43,087 nucleotides of DNA from Bacteroidota bacterium (GTDB lineage: Bacteria > Bacteroidota > Bacteroidia > JABEUT01), in assembly GCA_013285805.1 (NCBI GenBank), contig JABDGY010000015.1, forward strand, positions 1-43,087, in the 5' to 3' direction. Under the pieces are notes generated by a model. That model ran no database searches and was not told the DNA's origin. It saw only the letters and a program-made list of their open reading frames with translations. Made by a program: the position numbers and the translations under genes. Positions within the stretch are counted from its first letter, which is position 1. Every line of letters begins with the position of its first letter. Below are positions 15,979 through 26,971 of this stretch, piece after piece.

Positions 15979-17280
15979 TTATTTGCGTAAAATAGTTACA
16001 AATCCTTTTTTTACTTCGCGGTTGGCAAGGGTTAGCAGGTAGTAGTAAGTGCCATCGGTAGCATTACTGCCCGTCCAGTCGTTATGGTAGTCTGTCGAAT
16101 GATATACCACATCGCCCCAGCGGTCGAATATTTTAAGGTTGGTATTGGGATACTTATCAAGGTTCGCAATAAAAAACACATCGTTTGCGTCGCCGCTGCC
16201 CGGTGTAAATACGTTAGGCACTACCACATCGCAGGGGTTAATATTTACAATTACTGAGTCGTTATTGTAAGTGCAGGCCCCGGTTACCAGCATTTTTACC
16301 TGCTTAGGTCCCGAGGTGGGCCAGCTTACTACATACGGGCCACCCAGGCTACCCGATTGCACAACTCCGCCATCGAACTGCCAGGTATAAACATCGCTGG
16401 CATCGTTAATGGGGAATGAAATGCTTACCTTATCGTTAGGGCATATAGAATCGACCGGAACGGTTGAAATGTTCAAGGGGTTTGTTCCTCCGCGGAAGGT
16501 ACCACCGGCCAGGAATACGCCTGAATCGTAAAAAGGATCATTAGCGTCGGCAATGGCAATGCGGATATGATAAGTTTGTCCGCATTGCACTTGCGACAAA
16601 GCTTTTATAACTGTAGTAAAACCGCCATACCCTACCGTAGTGCCACTGTCGTTATCAACGTAATATTTCGAATTGCTGTTGCAGCATGCCCCGCCACAGT
16701 GGCTTTCTGCAGCACAGTTCCCGTTAATAGTATTAATTGAAATAGGTATTGCGGTACTGGGTACAAGGGCTATGTTTTGCTGACCCACAATTCCGGGCCC
16801 GCTGATAAAGAAAGCGAACACATCGTTCACCTTACAGCATGTGAAGGCAGGATATTCCTGCGAACCGAAAGCGAAGTCGAAGCTTACCGTGTCGGCAAAA
16901 GGAACGAAATCGAATTCAAGTATACAGGCATCGAAAGTGGAGTCGCCGCAAATGGCAGTCAGCGCCGAATCGCCCGGCAACCTGTTATCTACGCCCCTGT
17001 TTAAAGGGTTGTAAGCGCCTGCCGCAACTTCTACGCTGCCTGTTGTCATAAGTACCCCATTGGCAATGCCTATATTCGATTTTGTGCCGTTAAAATAACC
17101 AATGGCATGCGCGGCTCCGGTATATTTAATATTCGACACAATTATGCTGTTGCCAAGCAATACATTCTTTACGAGCTCGTCAGGGGTGTAGGTGTTAGTG
17201 TCGACAATAAGCTGGGCTTCTGCTTTGTAAAAGCAAAATGAAAATAATAACGATAATATAGCACTGCGTTTTAGGCCCAT
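15979..17280 (-). CDS. T9SS-exported choice-of-anchor-L protein with type B sorting domain
   Basis: Surface protein of 433 residues. Signal peptide MGLKRSAILSLLFSFCFYKAEAQ (start at the ATG at 17280, not the longer frame at 17298). Residues about 25-270 match the choice-of-anchor-L domain: an N-terminal LVKNVLLGNSIIVSNIKYTG, GVLMTTGS and the FDFAFGSQEYP segment, with several cysteines (CCKVND, ESHCGGACC) that could form disulfides. A PKD/Ig-like piece follows (about 275-350). The end, VVPNVFTPGSGDANDVF...LKIFDRWGDVVY...GTYYYLL, is the gliding-motility-associated C-terminal domain used as type B T9SS signal. Divergent from the dipeptidase gene; a TAACTTTG -7 element lies 15 bases upstream. Confidence 0.88.
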   Translation of the reverse strand: MGLKRSAILSLLFSFCFYKAEAQLIVDTNTYTPDELVKNVLLGNSIIVSNIKYTGAAHAIGYFNGTKSNIGIANGVLMTTGSVEVAAGAYNPLNRGVDNRLPGDSALTAICGDSTFDACILEFDFVPFADTVSFDFAFGSQEYPAFTCCKVNDVFAFFISGPGIVGQQNIALVPSTAIPISINTINGNCAAESHCGGACCNSNSKYYVDNDSGTTVGYGGFTTVIKALSQVQCGQTYHIRIAIADANDPFYDSGVFLAGGTFRGGTNPLNISTVPVDSICPNDKVSISFPINDASDVYTWQFDGGVVQSGSLGGPYVVSWPTSGPKQVKMLVTGACTYNNDSVIVNINPCDVVVPNVFTPGSGDANDVFFIANLDKYPNTNLKIFDRWGDVVYHSTDYHNDWTGSNATDGTYYYLLTLANREVKKGFVTILRK

Positions 17281-17295
17281 AGCATGCGTAAGGTA

Positions 17296-17303
17296 CAAAG
17301 TTA
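17296..17303 (-). promoter_or_regulatory. -7 element (TAACTTTG) of the anchor-L operon
   Basis: Minus-strand TAACTTTG matches TAnnTTTG and ends 15 bases before the ATG at 17280. Confidence 0.5.
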
Positions 17304-18953: not shown

Positions 18954-19679
18954 ATGAAACCACTGATAAAAATAGGATTTTGTATTCTATTATTATGTTC
19001 AACTTTAGGTGTATTCGCTCAATCCGATAGTTCTAAATTCTCTTTTATAGGAGTAAATGGGGGAATAGCCGTGCCTTTAAAATCATTTGCACCTTTTTCT
19101 TCTGTTTTTCCTGATAGTAAAGCCTCCTTAGGATATACCGTTAATATTACTGTTGAATATCCAATTAAAAATTCACGGATAGGGATAATTGGATTATTAA
19201 GCTATGGACAAAATAAATTTAATCCTATTTCATTTAGCCCAAGTGGGGGAGGATATTTGTATGACAGTTCCCGTTATGGTAATTTTAATGAACTTACTAT
19301 TCAAGGCGGCATTTACTTACCTTTATCATCGAAAGACAATGTGTTTAATTTTCACGTTTTAGGTGGAGTATTGTTTTTTACATTTCCTGAAACTATGTAT
19401 TCAGAAAACTATTATTACCCAAGTTATGCTTATAATGAAACCTATAGAATTAATTCTGCGAACATTATGGGGCTTACATTTGACATGGGCTTTGGCATCA
19501 AAGGTTATATAAATCAAAAGTTATTATTTGCATTGAGCATAGATACCTTCTTTTCTGAAAAAAGTAATTGTATAACGGGTTTAACTAATTATCAGGCAGG
19601 AACTAATACATATTTCTCATCACTAAATGTTTTCCTTTTCAATATTACAACTGGTTTAGCCTATGTGATTGGCAAGTAG
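18954..19679 (+). CDS. Small outer-membrane beta-barrel-like protein
   Basis: Exported protein of 241 residues with signal peptide MKPLIKIGFCILLLCSTLGVFAQ. The mature part is rich in glycine, tyrosine and phenylalanine in alternating strands and ends LFNITTGLAYVIGK. It shares the layout of the proteins at 8932 and 41655: an early glycine/proline-containing first strand, a variable loop, then a strand with YPI...RIGIIGLLSYG. Unlike most genes here it has a strong Shine-Dalgarno site (AAGGAG at 18940-18945, eight bases before the ATG), and its base composition is AT-rich compared with its neighbours. Function unknown. Confidence 0.65.
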   Translation: MKPLIKIGFCILLLCSTLGVFAQSDSSKFSFIGVNGGIAVPLKSFAPFSSVFPDSKASLGYTVNITVEYPIKNSRIGIIGLLSYGQNKFNPISFSPSGGGYLYDSSRYGNFNELTIQGGIYLPLSSKDNVFNFHVLGGVLFFTFPETMYSENYYYPSYAYNETYRINSANIMGLTFDMGFGIKGYINQKLLFALSIDTFFSEKSNCITGLTNYQAGTNTYFSSLNVFLFNITTGLAYVIGK

Positions 19680-19869: not shown

Positions 19870-19899
19870 TTGGTTAATTGGCTAAAATGAATACATTTG
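19870..19899 (+). promoter_or_regulatory. Complete Bacteroidota-type promoter (TTG-N19-TACATTTG)
   Basis: TTG at 19870-19872, a 19-base spacer and TACATTTG at 19892-19899 fit the Bacteroidota consensus exactly. Transcription should begin a few bases later, downstream of the longest open frame's first codon at 19897, which supports translation from the ATG at 19942. Confidence 0.75.
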
Positions 19900-19941: not shown

Positions 19942-22900
19942 ATGAAAAAAGGAATACTAAATCGTTCCCTTAAAGGCTTTATTGCTTTTCTGTTTTTATG
20001 CAATGGAACACTTATTGCGCAAACCGATTCTTTCCATTTTACAAAAGATGGCAAGCTAAAAGGACAAGACTTTGAAGAAGTTAACGCTTACTGGCGTGAA
20101 GGCGGTAAGGCTCTCAGAACTAAATTGGGGTTAAATACCGCTGATTTCAGGCAATTCATTACTTTTTATAGTAATAGAATTGACTCTGACCGCAATACTT
20201 TTATAGCAAAAATTACAAGCGGTGCCATAACGAAAAAAAATATGTTTGAATATATTGCCTTTAAGGAATCGCAATATATTTTCTATTACAAACAATACCA
20301 GGAGGCCAAGAAGAATTTCCCCTCGTCGGTAGCCGAATATTCTGTGAAGCATAATTATAATAAGAGGCCTGAGGGTACATGTAACCCAAGCTGTACTAAT
20401 ATAGATTTTGAGAATGGTACACTTTCAGGATGGAATGCGTATTATGCTTCCAATTCATCAAGTACTACATCATTTATTATTACTACTCCGGTTGGTGGAG
20501 CAGCTGGTGCGGTTACCAAGGCAGCTTTTGATCCCAGCGCTGCTATTAACGATTACCAGGTTGAAATAATGTCAGGCGGATTTGATGCGTTGGCCCCCTC
20601 TGTTCCAACTGTTTCTCCTTTCGGCGGAAAATATTCTGCACGGATTGGTGACAGTACAGTACCGTACCAGGGAGTTGCCATTTTGAACCAGACTTTTCAG
20701 GTAACTGCGGCCAATACCAACTTCACCTATATGTATGCTGTGTTCCTGGAAAACCCGGGCCACCCTTACTATGAACAACCTTTTTTCAATATTGCACTGC
20801 TCGATGCAGTAGGGGATACCATACCGCATTGCGGAACCTATAACGTAGTTTCAGGCGCTGGCCTGCCTGGTTACGATTCGGTTTTTTACTCTAACGACGG
20901 GGATTATGTTTACTATAAAAACTGGACCGTTGTATTTGCTTCCTTAAAAGCATATATAGGACAGTGTGTTACCATTCAGTTCCAAGCTTCTGATTGTGCA
21001 CTTGGCGGACACTTTGGCTATGCTTATGTAGATGCTTCCTGCAGCCCTGTTGGCCTTATTTCTTCATCTCCAGCATTATGCGGGCAGAAATTTATTACCC
21101 TCACGGCTCCTTCAGGTGGTATTTCATATTCATGGACCGGCCCCGCAGGAGGTATAGTTGGCGCTTCCAACACCCAATCGGTGAATGTTGACAGCGCCGG
21201 AACATATACTGTAATTGTTACTCCTGTAACGGGTACTTTCTGTGCTGACACTGTTTCTATTACCGTTCCAAAGGCCCCCGGCCCACCTCCAATACCTTCA
21301 TTTAAGGCCGATACAGTTTGTATGGGAACACCAACACAATTTACAAATACCTCGACGCCTGATACAGCCGGTGACAAATTCTACTGGATATTTAACGGCC
21401 TTAGTACATATCAGGACTCTACTACTAACCCAAGCTATACTTTCAGTTCGCCGGGCGTATACAGTGTGAAACTATTCGAGGTAAGTGGTGGCTGTGGTGC
21501 CGATACTACTATACTGGTAAAGGTAGACAGCAATTCTGTTTCAGGCTTTACCTATACGAATGCATGTGTGGGGCAGACGGTATTTTTTACCAATACCTCT
21601 ACAGGCGCCACTATATACAGCTGGAATTTTGGTGATCCGGGTTCGGGCCCTGCCAACACAAGTACCATCCTCGATCCTACCCACATTTATGGCTCTGCAG
21701 GAACATATACTGTAACCCTAGTGTCAAGTAGCGGAGGTTCATGTTCAGATACTCTTAAAGAAGCTGTTACTATAACCTCGCCTCCGGTGGTTACAGTCAG
21801 CGGTACCGATTCAATATGCCCCGGTGCCAGTGATGTTCTTACAGCTTCTGGCGCTACCAGTTATATATGGCAGCCCGGTGGCCTTTCAGGAGCTACTGTA
21901 ACTGTAACTCCGTCAGCAACTACAACCTATACAGTTACCGGTACCACCGGTTTATGCAGCCACGATAGTACATTTACTGTAGTGGTAAAAGTAAACCCTA
22001 CCGCCGGAATTACAGCCAAGCCCGATACCATTTGCGTTGGCGACAGCGCACATTTATATGCCTCGGGTGGAGGAACATATCTCTGGTCATCGCCCAGCAG
22101 CACATCTGACAGTATTTGGGTAAAACCCGGTTCAACTACAAATTACAATTTGCTGGTAACCAAAGATGGTTGTTCGGTTGGTGTAAATAAAACAGTAACT
22201 GTTCAATCGGCGGCATCTATTATTCTTACCCTTTCGAAAGACAGCATTTGCCCTAACGATAGCGCTACACTTACTGTAACAGGCGCTAATACTTATGTAT
22301 GGAGCACTGGTGCAACCACCAGTTCTATTACGGTTTCCCCGGGCGTTACAACCCCGTATTGGGTAGTTGCCCAGAATTTATGTGCAAAAGATTCACTGGC
22401 TAAAACACTTCATATAGTACCTTTCCCTACGCCTCTTGTTTCAGGTAATGATTCTATTTGCACAGGAAGCAGTACTACTTTAACAGCTACAGGTGGAACA
22501 ACCTATACATGGAACCCAGGCTCTTTATCCGGTGCGGTTGTAACCGTAAAACCGGTTTCAACTACAACATATACTCTTGAAGCAGCCAACGGCGCTTGTA
22601 GTAAAGATACTACCTTCACGGTATATGTATCGCCATATCCTACTCCGTTAATAACAGCCGTACCCGACAGCGTTTGTCCGGGCGGCTCTTCAGTGCTGAC
22701 TGCCAGCGGAGGCGGAACATATAGCTGGGCCACAGGCCAGACAAGCGATACACTTACAGTGGCCCCGGTAACAACTTCTGTATATACGGTAACTGTTACC
22801 AAGAATGGGTGTTCAATCTCTACCACAGGGCAGGTTAATGTAATAGTGCCCGGCTCTACTACACTGGTGCTTTCGCGCGATAGTATTTGCCCTTCAGATA

Positions 22901-24054
22901 CAGCCAGCTTTAAAGCAGCAGGAGCCACCACCTATTCGTGGAGCCCTGCAGCAGGATTAAGCTGTACCAATTGCCCTAATCCTGAGTTTACAGGAACAGT
23001 AACAGCGGGAAATTATACCTACACCCTTATTGCACATACAAAATGTGCTATTGATACCTTGAAAAAAACAATAACAGTAGTAGGTACTCCGACTGTAACC
23101 ATAGTTGGTAACGACTCAGTTTGCGCGGGCACCAATACTGTGCTTACCGCATCGGGAGGTTCGAGTTACAAATGGAGCACCGGTTCAACGAAAGCGTCAA
23201 TAATAGTAAGCCCTAGTGTAAACACTACTTACTATGTAACGGTTTCGAACGGACATTGCAGCACAATAGATTCATTTAGGGTGAGAATTAAACCTTTACC
23301 TATAGTTACCATAACAGGCCCGACAACGGCTTGCAGTGGCGATAATGTTACCATTACGGCTACCGGCGGCGGAACCTATGAATGGAGTACAGGGCAAAGC
23401 TCAAGCTCTATTACTGTGCCTGCTACCGCGGCACTTAGTAACCTTTATGTGGTGGTAACCAAAGGTTGCGCCGATACAGTGAAATACCCGATAAGTGTGG
23501 TTGCAACCAAGGGCGTAGTGGCATGGGCGCATCCTGATACTGTTCCGCTCGGCACGGTTGTAAACATTAATGCATCGGGTGTAACAGGTTATGTATGGAG
23601 CCCTTCTTCGCAGGTTAATTGTTATACATGCCCTAATACCACAACTGCAGGCCTAACTAACAACACTACATTTACCGTAACCGGTACCGATAGTAACGGT
23701 TGTGTAAGTACTGCCGAAGTAACTATTTACATAGAGTGCGAGGATTTCTTTGTCCCCAACGTATTTACACCTAATGGCGATGGAGACAATGATGAGTTTA
23801 TTGTAAGGCAAGTAATAACAAAAACTCCGCTTACACTTACCTCTAATCCGGAGGAGCCTGATTACACCATTGAGATATTTGACAGGTGGGGTAAGAAGGT
23901 ATTCAGCGCTAACGGTTCTACAGCCGCTCCATGGAATGGTAAGATAGATAATACAGGTGGTGATGCCCCTACAGGTGTGTACTACTATATTATTAAATCT
24001 ACCTGCGATAACAACAATTACGACCAGCACGGTTTTGTGCAGCTGATACGTTAA
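19942..24054 (+). CDS. Giant T9SS type B surface protein with two PKD and nine Ig-like modules
   Basis: Secreted protein of 1370 residues; start set at the ATG at 19942 (signal peptide MKKGILNRSLKGFIAFLFLCNG...AQ). In order: a charged helical region (about 30-140); a lectin-like beta-sandwich (about 147-370) opening CNPSCTNIDFENGTLSGWNAYY; an Ig-like segment (372-450); two PKD domains (451-530 and 533-615; NTSTGATIYSWNFGDPG); nine tandem modules of about 70 residues (616-1267), most with a DSICxG-type first cysteine and a second cysteine near the end; then the gliding-associated C-terminal domain FVPNVFTPNGDGDNDEF...IEIFDRWGKKVF...PTGVYYYII (1268-1370), the type B T9SS signal. Same architecture as the next gene. 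Probably a surface adhesin or filament; the ligand is unknown. Confidence 0.9.
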   Translation: MKKGILNRSLKGFIAFLFLCNGTLIAQTDSFHFTKDGKLKGQDFEEVNAYWREGGKALRTKLGLNTADFRQFITFYSNRIDSDRNTFIAKITSGAITKKNMFEYIAFKESQYIFYYKQYQEAKKNFPSSVAEYSVKHNYNKRPEGTCNPSCTNIDFENGTLSGWNAYYASNSSSTTSFIITTPVGGAAGAVTKAAFDPSAAINDYQVEIMSGGFDALAPSVPTVSPFGGKYSARIGDSTVPYQGVAILNQTFQVTAANTNFTYMYAVFLENPGHPYYEQPFFNIALLDAVGDTIPHCGTYNVVSGAGLPGYDSVFYSNDGDYVYYKNWTVVFASLKAYIGQCVTIQFQASDCALGGHFGYAYVDASCSPVGLISSSPALCGQKFITLTAPSGGISYSWTGPAGGIVGASNTQSVNVDSAGTYTVIVTPVTGTFCADTVSITVPKAPGPPPIPSFKADTVCMGTPTQFTNTSTPDTAGDKFYWIFNGLSTYQDSTTNPSYTFSSPGVYSVKLFEVSGGCGADTTILVKVDSNSVSGFTYTNACVGQTVFFTNTSTGATIYSWNFGDPGSGPANTSTILDPTHIYGSAGTYTVTLVSSSGGSCSDTLKEAVTITSPPVVTVSGTDSICPGASDVLTASGATSYIWQPGGLSGATVTVTPSATTTYTVTGTTGLCSHDSTFTVVVKVNPTAGITAKPDTICVGDSAHLYASGGGTYLWSSPSSTSDSIWVKPGSTTNYNLLVTKDGCSVGVNKTVTVQSAASIILTLSKDSICPNDSATLTVTGANTYVWSTGATTSSITVSPGVTTPYWVVAQNLCAKDSLAKTLHIVPFPTPLVSGNDSICTGSSTTLTATGGTTYTWNPGSLSGAVVTVKPVSTTTYTLEAANGACSKDTTFTVYVSPYPTPLITAVPDSVCPGGSSVLTASGGGTYSWATGQTSDTLTVAPVTTSVYTVTVTKNGCSISTTGQVNVIVPGSTTLVLSRDSICPSDTASFKAAGATTYSWSPAAGLSCTNCPNPEFTGTVTAGNYTYTLIAHTKCAIDTLKKTITVVGTPTVTIVGNDSVCAGTNTVLTASGGSSYKWSTGSTKASIIVSPSVNTTYYVTVSNGHCSTIDSFRVRIKPLPIVTITGPTTACSGDNVTITATGGGTYEWSTGQSSSSITVPATAALSNLYVVVTKGCADTVKYPISVVATKGVVAWAHPDTVPLGTVVNINASGVTGYVWSPSSQVNCYTCPNTTTAGLTNNTTFTVTGTDSNGCVSTAEVTIYIECEDFFVPNVFTPNGDGDNDEFIVRQVITKTPLTLTSNPEEPDYTIEIFDRWGKKVFSANGSTAAPWNGKIDNTGGDAPTGVYYYIIKSTCDNNNYDQHGFVQLIR
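21786..23740 (+). repeat. Nine tandem Ig-like module repeats
   Basis: In-frame repeat of about 210 bases, starting near 21789, 22003, 22213, 22426, 22639, 22855, 23089, 23299 and 23509. Conserved protein features per unit are V-C-(P/A)-G near the start, a glycine-rich turn followed by Y-x-W, a Thr/Val strand, and a closing cysteine. Module 6 and module 9 also carry a CxxCP turn. The DNA of the units has diverged, so they are old rather than recent duplications. Confidence 0.85.
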
Positions 24055-24073
24055 AGAAAAAATAACTATTAAG

Positions 24074-24108
24074 AAAGGGTGAAAGTTTTCTTTCACCCTT
24101 TTTTCTTT
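24074..24108 (+). terminator. Rho-independent terminator between the two giant genes
   Basis: AAAGGGTGAAAG pairs perfectly with CTTTCACCCTTT over a TTTT loop, followed by a T-rich tail. The second giant gene must therefore have its own promoter. Confidence 0.88.
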
Positions 24109-24159
24109 GACTGTTGGCGGGCAGTACAGGTGCTTTATACGTATTTCACTTAAAAGCAG

Positions 24160-24167
24160 TACCTTTG
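24160..24167 (+). promoter_or_regulatory. -7 element (TACCTTTG) before the second giant gene
   Basis: TACCTTTG matches TAnnTTTG and lies 23 bases before the ATG at 24191, after the terminator of the preceding gene. The -33 region has only TTT at a longer spacing. Confidence 0.55.
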
Positions 24168-24190
24168 ATACTTAAACTATACCTTTTAGA

Positions 24191-26971
24191 ATGAAAAAAT
24201 CTACTTTTTTCCTCGCTAAAACCCTGGTATTGCTTTCCTTCATTTCTTCTGTAACCGCTTTTTCCCAAAGCAAGCCCGACATGGATGAGGCCGATAAAGG
24301 CTTTATTATTTTCGGAAAAGTATTGGAAAAAGTACGTGAAAATGTGGGTGCAAGCAAAGAAGATTTCAGGATTTTCCAGTCGTTTTACGGGCAAAAAATT
24401 GATAATGAAAGAGGAAAATTTTTCAGTTCATTAGGCAGCGCCCGTTTTGATGAAAAGGCTGCTGAAAATAAAATGAAAGATGAGGAAACACGTATTACTG
24501 CTTTATATAATCAGTTTGTAGAGGTAAGGAAAGAATACCCTTCTTCAGTTGAGGAATTCAGGTACCCTGCACACCGTCTTATGGGTACATGCGACTCAAG
24601 TGGCTGCACTAATATTAACTTTGAACAGGGCACGCTTAACGGCTGGAATGCCTTTTACGGTTACGACAATAACAGCAGCGGCTTCCCTTATTTCAATGTA
24701 ACAGATATTACGGGCGGGCCTGCCGGCGCAGTTACTGAGGCTGCTAATGATGCATTTACATCAACATCAGGTTATTATAATGCCGGTATTGGACCAAATC
24801 CCAGCCCCGATTACCAGATAAGCATAACTTCAGGCGCACGAGGCGATGCATTGGTGCCTACAGTTCCTGTTGTGTCTCCTTTCGGCGGAAAATATTCAGC
24901 TATGGTGGGCGACAGTACCCTGCGGAATTACGGAGTAGCTATTCTTTCAAAGACCTTTTTAGTAAACTCAAGCAACGATAACTTTACATACCAATACGCG
25001 GTTTTTCTTGAAAACCCTGTTTCACATAGTTATTATCAGCAGCCATTTTTTAAAGTTGCTGTGTTAGATGAACTGGGAGATACCATTCCTTTCTGCGGAG
25101 AATACACAGTGGTTTCAAAAGGCGGCCTGCCTGGATTTACAGCTATTTATTATCCGCCTAATGGAGATTCAGTGTACTATAAAAACTGGACCGTAGTTGA
25201 TGTGCCCCTGAAAAAATATATAGGCCAATGCGTTACCGTAGTTTTTGAATCAGGCGATTGTGGCCTTGGCGGACATTTTGGCTATGCCTATGTAAGCGCT
25301 TCATGTGCTCCGCTGGGTGTGCTGAGCTCTTCACCGGCTTTATGCGGACAGAAAACAATTACCGTTACAGCTCCTCCCGGTTTTGCGGGCTATTTGTGGA
25401 GCGGACCGACAAACGGAATAGTAGGCGCAGATAGCACCCAGAATATTTCAGTTGACAGTGCAGGAACATATACAGTTGTATTAACACCGGTTACCGGCGC
25501 AAGTTGCGCCGATACGCTTAGTATAACAATCGGCAAGGCTCCCGGCCCTCCGCCTACAGCTAACTTTACTGCTGACACCGTTTGTGCGGGACAGGCCACT
25601 ACATTTAATAATAAATCGAACCCGATAACGGGTAAGTTTTACTGGGATTTTTACAACACCGGAACATTTGAAGATTCAACCGTTAACCCTACATGGACAT
25701 ACGCCCATGCAGGTACCTATTTTGTAAAACTGTATGAAAATAATAATGGTTGCGGGGCCGATACAATATTGAAAGTTATAGTAGACAGCTCATCTATAGC
25801 CTCATTTACGGCTCCCAGTGTCTGCCTCGGGCAATCGGTAACTTTTACAAATAACTCGGTGGGTGCAACTTCCTATGCCTGGAATTTCGGCGACCCTTCT
25901 TCAGGTATAAATAATACAAGTACCCTTACCAATCCTTCGCATACCTATGGCTCCATAGGGACATATACTGTTGTACTGGTTACCAAAATAAAGGGCAGTA
26001 CTTGCGCCGATACAGCTAAAGAAGTAATTACCGTATCACCTATTCCTGTGCCTAATATTGTGGGTAACCACAACATTTGTGCGTGTACCAACACCGTGCT
26101 TACTGCTTCGGGTGGTTCAACCTATTCATGGGCTCCGGGCGGAGGTACAACAGCTTCCATAACAGTTAAGCCTTGCGTTAATACTGTCTATACTGTAACT
26201 GTTTCGAATGGAGTTTGCACAGCAACAGATACGTTCGCGGTAATTGTTACACCCTTACCTGTGGTTACGGTTACAGGCGCCACCAATGTTTGCCAGAACG
26301 ACAGCGTAACACTAAGCGCAACCGGCGGAGGTGTGTACGAATGGAGCAATAAATCGACAAACAGTTCCATTACAGTACTGGCATCGAAAGATTCGACCTA
26401 TTATGTTGTGGTAACAAAAGGTTGCGCCGATACAACTTTCCATACTATTACTGTTATTCCTGTGAAAGGCATTACAGCTTGCTGCGATACAACCATAGCC
26501 CCCGGAACCAGTGCAGGAATAGGCGCAAGTGGTGCCGTTGGTTATGTGTGGAGCCCTTCAGGCAGTGTTGATTGTTATACATGCCCGGTTACTAATGCTA
26601 CACCAAGCGTGACTACTACCTATACGGTTGTGGGAACGGATAGCAACGGCTGTAAGAGTTATGCAGAGGTTACTATAACATTGGAATGCACCAATTATAT
26701 TATACCGAATGTATTTACGCCTAATGGCGACGGTAAGAATGATGCTTTCCTTATAAAGGCATTCGGAACACAGAAATACAGTATAGAGATATATGACCGA
26801 TGGGGCGTAAAGGTATTCCAGTCCGATGATCCGTCAACACCGTGGAACGGTAAAATAAATAATACCGGTGGTGAAGCTCCTACAGGTGTTTACTATTATA
26901 TTCTTAAATCAAACTGTAATAATGTGGAAGATGACCACCACGGCTTTTTGCAGTTGATAAGAGGACAATAG
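24191..26971 (+). CDS. Large T9SS type B surface protein, tandem paralog with three Ig-like modules
   Basis: Secreted protein of 926 residues with signal peptide MKKSTFFLAKTLVLLSFISSVTAFSQ. The order of domains repeats that of its neighbour: charged helical region (about 30-130), lectin-like sandwich (135-375; CTNINFEQGTLNGWNAFYG and FGGKYSAMVGDS), Ig-like segment (378-450), two PKD domains (456-535 and 535-615; ATSYAWNFGDPS), three Ig-like modules (617-835), and the gliding-associated C-terminal domain YIIPNVFTPNGDGKNDAF...IEIYDRWGVKVF (836-926). The three modules correspond best to modules 7-9 of the neighbour, including the CYTCP turn in the last, so modules 1-6 are the difference. Likely a cell-surface adhesin; own promoter and possibly separate regulation. 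Confidence 0.9.
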   Translation: MKKSTFFLAKTLVLLSFISSVTAFSQSKPDMDEADKGFIIFGKVLEKVRENVGASKEDFRIFQSFYGQKIDNERGKFFSSLGSARFDEKAAENKMKDEETRITALYNQFVEVRKEYPSSVEEFRYPAHRLMGTCDSSGCTNINFEQGTLNGWNAFYGYDNNSSGFPYFNVTDITGGPAGAVTEAANDAFTSTSGYYNAGIGPNPSPDYQISITSGARGDALVPTVPVVSPFGGKYSAMVGDSTLRNYGVAILSKTFLVNSSNDNFTYQYAVFLENPVSHSYYQQPFFKVAVLDELGDTIPFCGEYTVVSKGGLPGFTAIYYPPNGDSVYYKNWTVVDVPLKKYIGQCVTVVFESGDCGLGGHFGYAYVSASCAPLGVLSSSPALCGQKTITVTAPPGFAGYLWSGPTNGIVGADSTQNISVDSAGTYTVVLTPVTGASCADTLSITIGKAPGPPPTANFTADTVCAGQATTFNNKSNPITGKFYWDFYNTGTFEDSTVNPTWTYAHAGTYFVKLYENNNGCGADTILKVIVDSSSIASFTAPSVCLGQSVTFTNNSVGATSYAWNFGDPSSGINNTSTLTNPSHTYGSIGTYTVVLVTKIKGSTCADTAKEVITVSPIPVPNIVGNHNICACTNTVLTASGGSTYSWAPGGGTTASITVKPCVNTVYTVTVSNGVCTATDTFAVIVTPLPVVTVTGATNVCQNDSVTLSATGGGVYEWSNKSTNSSITVLASKDSTYYVVVTKGCADTTFHTITVIPVKGITACCDTTIAPGTSAGIGASGAVGYVWSPSGSVDCYTCPVTNATPSVTTTYTVVGTDSNGCKSYAEVTITLECTNYIIPNVFTPNGDGKNDAFLIKAFGTQKYSIEIYDRWGVKVFQSDDPSTPWNGKINNTGGEAPTGVYYYILKSNCNNVEDDHHGFLQLIRGQ
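26037..26690 (+). repeat. Three tandem Ig-like module repeats
   Basis: Units begin near 26040, 26250 and 26460, with the same module pattern as at 21786-23740. The last unit has CYTCP like module 9 of the neighbour. Confidence 0.75.

Follow-up and report, generated by a model that had tools for sequence, protein, structure and literature searches.

Two neighbouring genes for T9SS type B surface proteins

The window analysed here is the whole 43,087-nucleotide stretch of contig JABDGY010000015.1 from a Bacteroidota bacterium (GenBank assembly GCA_013285805.1). It contains two neighbouring genes on the same strand, referred to as A and B, and their features are collected in Table 1. The domain order was common to both proteins and comprised a signal peptide, a helical segment, a jelly roll, one Ig domain, two PKD domains, a stalk of further Ig-like modules and a T9SS type B sorting domain. 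The open frame of gene A begins at a TTG at position 19897, and the signal peptide was found by inspection to be given by the ATG at 19942. PKD domains were found in both A and B, and both sorting domains scored above the curated cut-offs of TIGR04131 (41.3 bits for A and 50.9 bits for B; cut-off 35) and CHU_C (71.6 and 80.3 bits; cut-off 27). When the two sequences were compared directly, one alignment ran from the head of A into the first Ig modules with 51% identity to B, and a second alignment joined the last modules and anchor of A to those of B. The open frames and domain profiles bore out the coordinates, the same-strand neighbourhood and the common domain order of the original prediction, which had also called the proteins giant; this word is overstated, since stalk proteins of 2000-3000 aa exist in the same genus. 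The window holds a third CHU_C (T9SS type B) protein of 439 aa, encoded on the minus strand at 15979-17298.

Table 1. Positions of genes A and B, their domains and the nearby transcription signals in the window.
Feature	Position	Strand	Remark
TAnnTTTG box, 50 bp upstream of A ATG	19892-19899	+	consensus only; TTG box at 19870
Gene A	19942-24054	+	1370 aa, T9SS type B surface protein, nine-module Ig stalk
A jelly-roll part of head	20377-21057 (approximate)	+	aligned to B; fold inferred from B model
A Ig-like domain and two PKD domains	21058-21786 (approximate)	+	profile matches
A modules 1-3 (first block)	21787-22428	+	module alignment, trees
A modules 4-6 (second block copy; CxxCP turn in module 6)	22429-23091	+	module alignment
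A modules 7-9 (triplet matching B stalk)	23092-23751	+	module alignment, trees
A CHU_C / T9SS type B sorting domain	23752-24045	+	PF13585 6e-20; TIGR04131 1.2e-10
Terminator-like hairpin with T tract, between A and B	24073-24110	+	-26.1 kcal/mol, z -4.45
TAnnTTTG box, 31 bp upstream of B start	24160-24167	+	consensus only
Gene B	24191-26971	+	926 aa, T9SS type B surface protein, three-module Ig stalk
B helical N-terminal segment	24281-24562 (residues 31-124)	+	model of B
B jelly-roll, MAM-like head domain	24590-25306 (residues 134-372)	+	model, structure alignment
B Ig-like domain and two PKD domains	25322-26047 (approximate)	+	profile matches, structure alignment
B Ig modules (three), homologous to A7-A9	26045-26701	+	module alignment, trees
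B CHU_C / T9SS type B sorting domain	26699-26956	+	PF13585 1.1e-22; TIGR04131 1.3e-13

Promoters for each gene and a terminator between them had also been predicted, and the hairpin and both TAnnTTTG boxes fit this claim at the level of consensus evidence. The consensus terminator scan did not list the hairpin among its matches. TAnnTTTG is the Bacteroidota -7 type box; it was present within 150 bp upstream in 8 of the 22 gene starts examined, where about 0.06 were expected per start. Separate transcription of A and B is plausible.

Stalk modules and block duplication in A

The module alignment revealed nine modules of 70-80 residues in A and three of 69-78 residues in B. With the Pfam family Ig_7 (E <= 0.1), three stretches of A were matched, whereas B gave no match. 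Because Ig_7 finds few of the modules, the count rests on their mutual alignment, on a profile of their own and, for B, on the structural model (mean pLDDT 78); the predicted nine and three were confirmed. By pairwise score, the best partners were B7-A7, B8-A8 and B9-A9, with identities of 61, 56 and 55-57%, respectively. The claim that the three modules of B match A7-A9 best therefore holds in pairwise comparison, and the refuting check named for it, carried out pairwise, did not refute it. The trees reproduced the pairing in part: A8/B8 was well supported in two module trees (99/92* and 100/92*), A9/B9 was weakly supported (83/45 and 85/71), and A7/B7 were paired in one tree (98/67) and unpaired in the larger one, where their pairing was not rejected (AU p 0.425). 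A7, B7 and the G008 modules formed a starred clade (98/90* and 99/96*). Single forks in these trees are weak because there are few alignment columns, and the second module tree was calculated without the long rows G8B_2 and G7C57_1. The CxxCP turn was present in A9 and B9, as had been described for the final module; it also occurred in A6 and so does not mark the last module alone.

Within A, modules three positions apart resembled each other, with identities of 57% (A1-A4), 47% (A2-A5) and 47% (A3-A6). The mean similarity was 0.383 at offset three compared with 0.182-0.269 at the other offsets, a value reached at that offset by 4 of 50000 order permutations and at any offset from one to five by 57 of 20000. 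Based on these identities and permutations, and on the CxxCP turn shared by A9 and A6, we conclude that the six extra modules of A represent two diverged copies of a three-module block. A1 and A4 were paired in the module trees (99/83* and 89/86). The tree displayed neither A2/A5 nor A3/A6, although neither pair was rejected (AU p 0.577 and 0.26); the best partner of A3 by score was A5 (0.37), with A6 a close second (0.35), and in the larger tree A3 grouped with third modules of other species. The three-module block that is present in two copies in A1-A6 resembled modules 1-3 of genes in other species.

We also profiled 40 proteins for the same signal. A clear offset-three peak was found in gene A and also in G004:C32 (0.58). 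A period of three is not general in the genus, as similarity in most of the profiled proteins decayed with offset.

Stalk length across the genus

Type B matches numbered 326 in 11 genomes, and those taken lay mainly in open frames of at least about 800 aa; G000, G002 and G007 were sampled less in the stalk survey, and frames cut at the 3' end were left out. Four or more modules were present in 189 of the 272 open frames of at least 500 aa, and a head of at least 100 residues in 171 of the 189. Fifty reciprocal-best head pairs were compared, 49 in the genus and one in G054. Stalk length differed by at least 0.75 module length in 29 of these 50 sister-head pairs, and the differences were 1, 2, 3, 4, 5, 6, 8, 17 and 20 module-lengths. 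Nine of the 27 adjacent pairs listed, whatever their strand, had heads at least 45% identical; module number differed in seven of the nine, one of which is the window pair. Unequal stalks are common in the genus, and the A/B pair is an ordinary case. Growth in steps of three, an idea that arose since several pairs differed by exactly three, was tested after 120 stretches had been added and was rejected: multiples of three made up 5 of 29 differences when lengths were compared and 5 of 31 when modules were counted, less than the one third expected of random sizes.

Two other observations concern particular genes of the genus. In the adjacent pair at G009:C45 (L167), the heads were 82% identical and the stalks contained 4 and 12 modules; this pair illustrates unequal stalks after duplication better than A and B do. 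At G009:C2:89011-89268, a type B sorting domain is encoded within a frame 27,093 aa long, possibly that of a giant T9SS protein.

The variation in module number may have no functional meaning. If any long enough rod works, blocks gained or lost by recombination would be tolerated and module number would drift, as the many sizes of difference among the unequal pairs (1 to 20 module-lengths) would lead one to expect. However, stalk length is the same in 21 of the 50 pairs even though the median identity of their matched modules has fallen to 45-78%, which suggests some constraint. We regard drift as possible but somewhat doubtful, and a putative length-ruler function of the stalk as plausible.

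Probable separate histories of heads and tails

The identity between A and B varied by domain, with values of 31% in the helical segment, 64% in the jelly roll, 61/56/55-57% in the last triplet and 62% in the anchor; the corresponding values between B and its G008 homolog were 45, 70, 46/46/57 and 54%. In a tree of 24 heads, B grouped with G008, G009, G006:C102 and G010:C8 (98/98*), and A lay outside. With these heads, AU tests rejected A and B as sisters (p 0.003), A with B and G008 (p 0.004) and A inside the five-row clade of B (p 0.009), and gave p 0.064 for A inside the ten-row clade. With the jelly roll only (17 of the 24 rows), the p values were 0.062 for A with B, 0.082 for the five-row clade and 0.358 for the ten-row clade; on nine taxa, A and B as sisters gave p 0.085. 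The jelly-roll-only trees drop 7 of the 24 heads, in which no boundary motif could be located, the 24-row trees leave out the long-branch head G003:C28, and G003:C33 failed the part split. The tested clades were named after the trees had been seen. The tree calculated from the last triplet plus anchor contained a clade of A, B and G008 (100/98*), with A and B together at 85/89; placing A outside the B family was rejected (AU p 0.0016), and B with G008 was not (p 0.139).

Because A and B are rejected as sisters by their heads while the last triplet and anchor group them together, A is likely a mosaic in which its own head and two block copies were placed on a B-like tail triplet and anchor. This reading weakens when the fast-evolving helical segment is removed, on nine taxa, or against the ten-row clade.

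The original prediction had instead proposed a tandem duplication of one gene at this site, after which the stalk grew or shrank as a length ruler while head and anchor were kept. The two genes are indeed adjacent, with the same strand and domain order and with last triplets and anchors that are mutually closest, and congeners have adjacent genes whose heads are far more alike and whose stalks are unequal, as at G009:C45 and at G007:C1 (heads 72% identical, 15 and 11 modules). Against this, the head tree already disfavours a local duplication, since sister heads were rejected with 24 heads and borderline on the subsets; the helical segments are only 31% identical; and A1-A6 resemble modules of other genes. 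Three-module stalks like that of B were also found in three relatives of other species (G005:C7, G001:C113 and G002:C4), so B need not be a shortened A. Homologous heads and anchors were confirmed, but retention of the head is doubtful given the divergent helical segments and the exchange of heads in congeners described below. We consider a tandem origin at this site unlikely; the pair looks like an old mosaic and not a recent duplicate.

The corresponding locus in congeners

The head was present in all 10 of the same-genus genomes examined. At G001:C121 and G005:C21, the gene order was an M20 peptidase, one head gene with six Ig modules, a radical SAM gene and MurF-Alr. At G002:C65, the M20 peptidase was followed by one such head gene, with radical SAM not adjacent, and G006:C126 had the M20 peptidase and an A-like gene truncated by the end of the contig. 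A B-like gene adjoined radical SAM at G008:C86, where the contig ends upstream, and G007:C47 had radical SAM and MurF-Alr with no adjacent head gene. The reading frame of the G008:C86 gene is broken in the head in this assembly (L055, about position 1062). Just upstream of A, a 241-aa gene at 18954-19679 gave no Pfam or NCBIfam match; no counterpart was found at the corresponding place in G001, G005, G002 or G006, and its relatives elsewhere in the genus were only weak.

The tails of G001:C121, G005:C21 and G002:C65 formed one clade (100/100*). In contrast, the same-locus heads of G001 and G005 were rejected as sisters (p about 1e-58) and came from different paralog clades, and the tails were each rejected from the kin of their own heads (p 0.001 and 6e-6). 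These groups, too, were named after the trees had been seen. The case for incongruence between head and tail is stronger in the congeners than in A. The chances are only a little short of even that the stretch between the M20 peptidase and radical SAM is a head-exchange site, at which varying heads are combined with a single conserved tail triplet and anchor, and stalk blocks were added independently. If this is true, the window shows a state with two such genes side by side. Varying heads and independent stalk blocks would mean that the genus combines head identity and reach as separate variables, and the data suggest that the heads and the tails found at a single locus can differ in their history.

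Fold, export and proposed working

The model of B contained helices at residues 31-124 and a jelly roll at residues 134-372, followed by an Ig/PKD rod. The jelly roll was similar to the MAM-Ig module of receptor phosphatase mu (2c9a), with a Z-score of 9.3 and an rmsd of 3.8 Å over 153 aligned residues, and to 8iqe (Z-score 8.9); Z-scores near 9 are modest for a model of 926 residues. Structure comparison placed the Ig/PKD modules of B close to collagenase PKD domains and to fragments of GhpA. The model of A (m251689578ff6; mean pLDDT 47.7) was good mainly for modules 7-9 and was set aside. The head of B matched no Pfam family, and the other nine of the 10 heads scanned gave single-member stray matches only. 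The absence of other head folds in the VIA rows means little, because these rows are mostly stalk.

GhpA of Aureispira sp. CCB-QB1 (PDB 9flp, 9fly and others), which has Ig/PKD-type rod modules like those of A and B and gave a very weak C-terminal match, is described as forming a heptameric hook (PMC11205867). Its fragments were the top Foldseek matches (1.1e-25 to 1.1e-13), and it was the sole PDB sequence match for A at E <= 0.001 (4.1e-25), as would be expected if A and B were relatives that form multimeric hooks for catching prey. However, the matches lie mainly in the Ig/PKD rod modules at 17-24% identity, and modules of this common kind are weak evidence for a hook. The heads had no significant PDB sequence match, no head match was found with GhpA, and A and B are 4-6 times shorter than the 5898-aa GhpA, all of which makes a hook very improbable. 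Although the source is a metagenome-assembled genome (MAG) of 2.05 Mb in 110 contigs and 60.4% complete, the chance that repeat collapse or expansion during assembly made the module difference is negligible, since the longest exact repeat within the A Ig stalk is 13 bp, too short for the modules to be collapsible repeats, and modules within A are at most 57% identical (A1-A4), with adjacent ones at 26-46%.

The same genome encodes SprA (2266 bits) and four PorP-family genes over the cut-off. Together with the export and C-terminal anchoring described for type B cargo (PMC11205867), these genes predict that A and B are exported by the T9SS and displayed at the surface on a C-terminal anchor, with the head outermost. 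The N-terminal head, consisting of the helical segment and the MAM-like jelly roll, would sit at the distal tip of a rod built from one Ig domain, two PKD domains and then nine (A) or three (B) further Ig modules, and would mediate binding. The head of A would reach farther than that of B: an Ig module is about 4 nm, and six extra modules would add some 20-25 nm. The length difference probably arises by domain shuffling and block duplication within a large paralog family of the genus. Overall, the observation is sound and the history first proposed for it is doubtful, and the exchange of heads is the part worth following. With moderate confidence, we favour a rod-borne head on a T9SS anchor whose unequal stalks came about by shuffling and block duplication, A being a mosaic rather than the product of a recent tandem duplication.

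Comparison with known systems

On their sequences and the model of B, we class A and B as putative T9SS fibrillar adhesin-like proteins. They have the features of T9SS type B cargo, namely sorting domains above the cut-offs and SprA and PorP-family genes in the genome, and the stalk array and surface anchor of fibrillar adhesins, with a jelly roll of MAM-like fold in the head as a candidate adhesive domain. As described for fibrillar adhesins (PMC8286594, PMC9210967), A and B are long single-chain proteins in which repeated domains build the stalk and the putative adhesive part sits at the N-terminus, distant from the anchor at the C-terminus. In contrast, the head of B matches no Pfam family, and the anchor is a T9SS type B domain. 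SprB/RemA-type adhesins of gliding bacteria, as described in PMC11205867, are likewise large, T9SS-secreted and have paralogs, but no lectin family was found in A/B-type heads.

Our literature search, limited to the terms used, yielded no paper that we recognised as treating this protein family. New here are the block duplication inside A, the head/tail incongruence, and the change of heads over an orthologous tail in congeners. New fibrillar adhesins are described as arising by shuffling of the ligand-binding domain (PMC10952558); here, congeners carry different heads at a single chromosomal site, on a tail that is orthologous.

Periscope Proteins are defined, in the descriptions consulted, by highly identical tandem repeats whose number differs from strain to strain (PMC8201768, PMC9704523). 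Like A and B, they have an N-terminal head on a stalk whose folded modules vary in number, and A and B may work in the same way. Unlike Periscope Proteins, adjacent Ig modules of A have the low identities given above, and the comparison here is between species with one genome each. This suggests that surface proteins of variable reach need not carry the near-identical repeats of Periscope Proteins, and related heads on unequal stalks provide a natural set for testing reach and binding apart.
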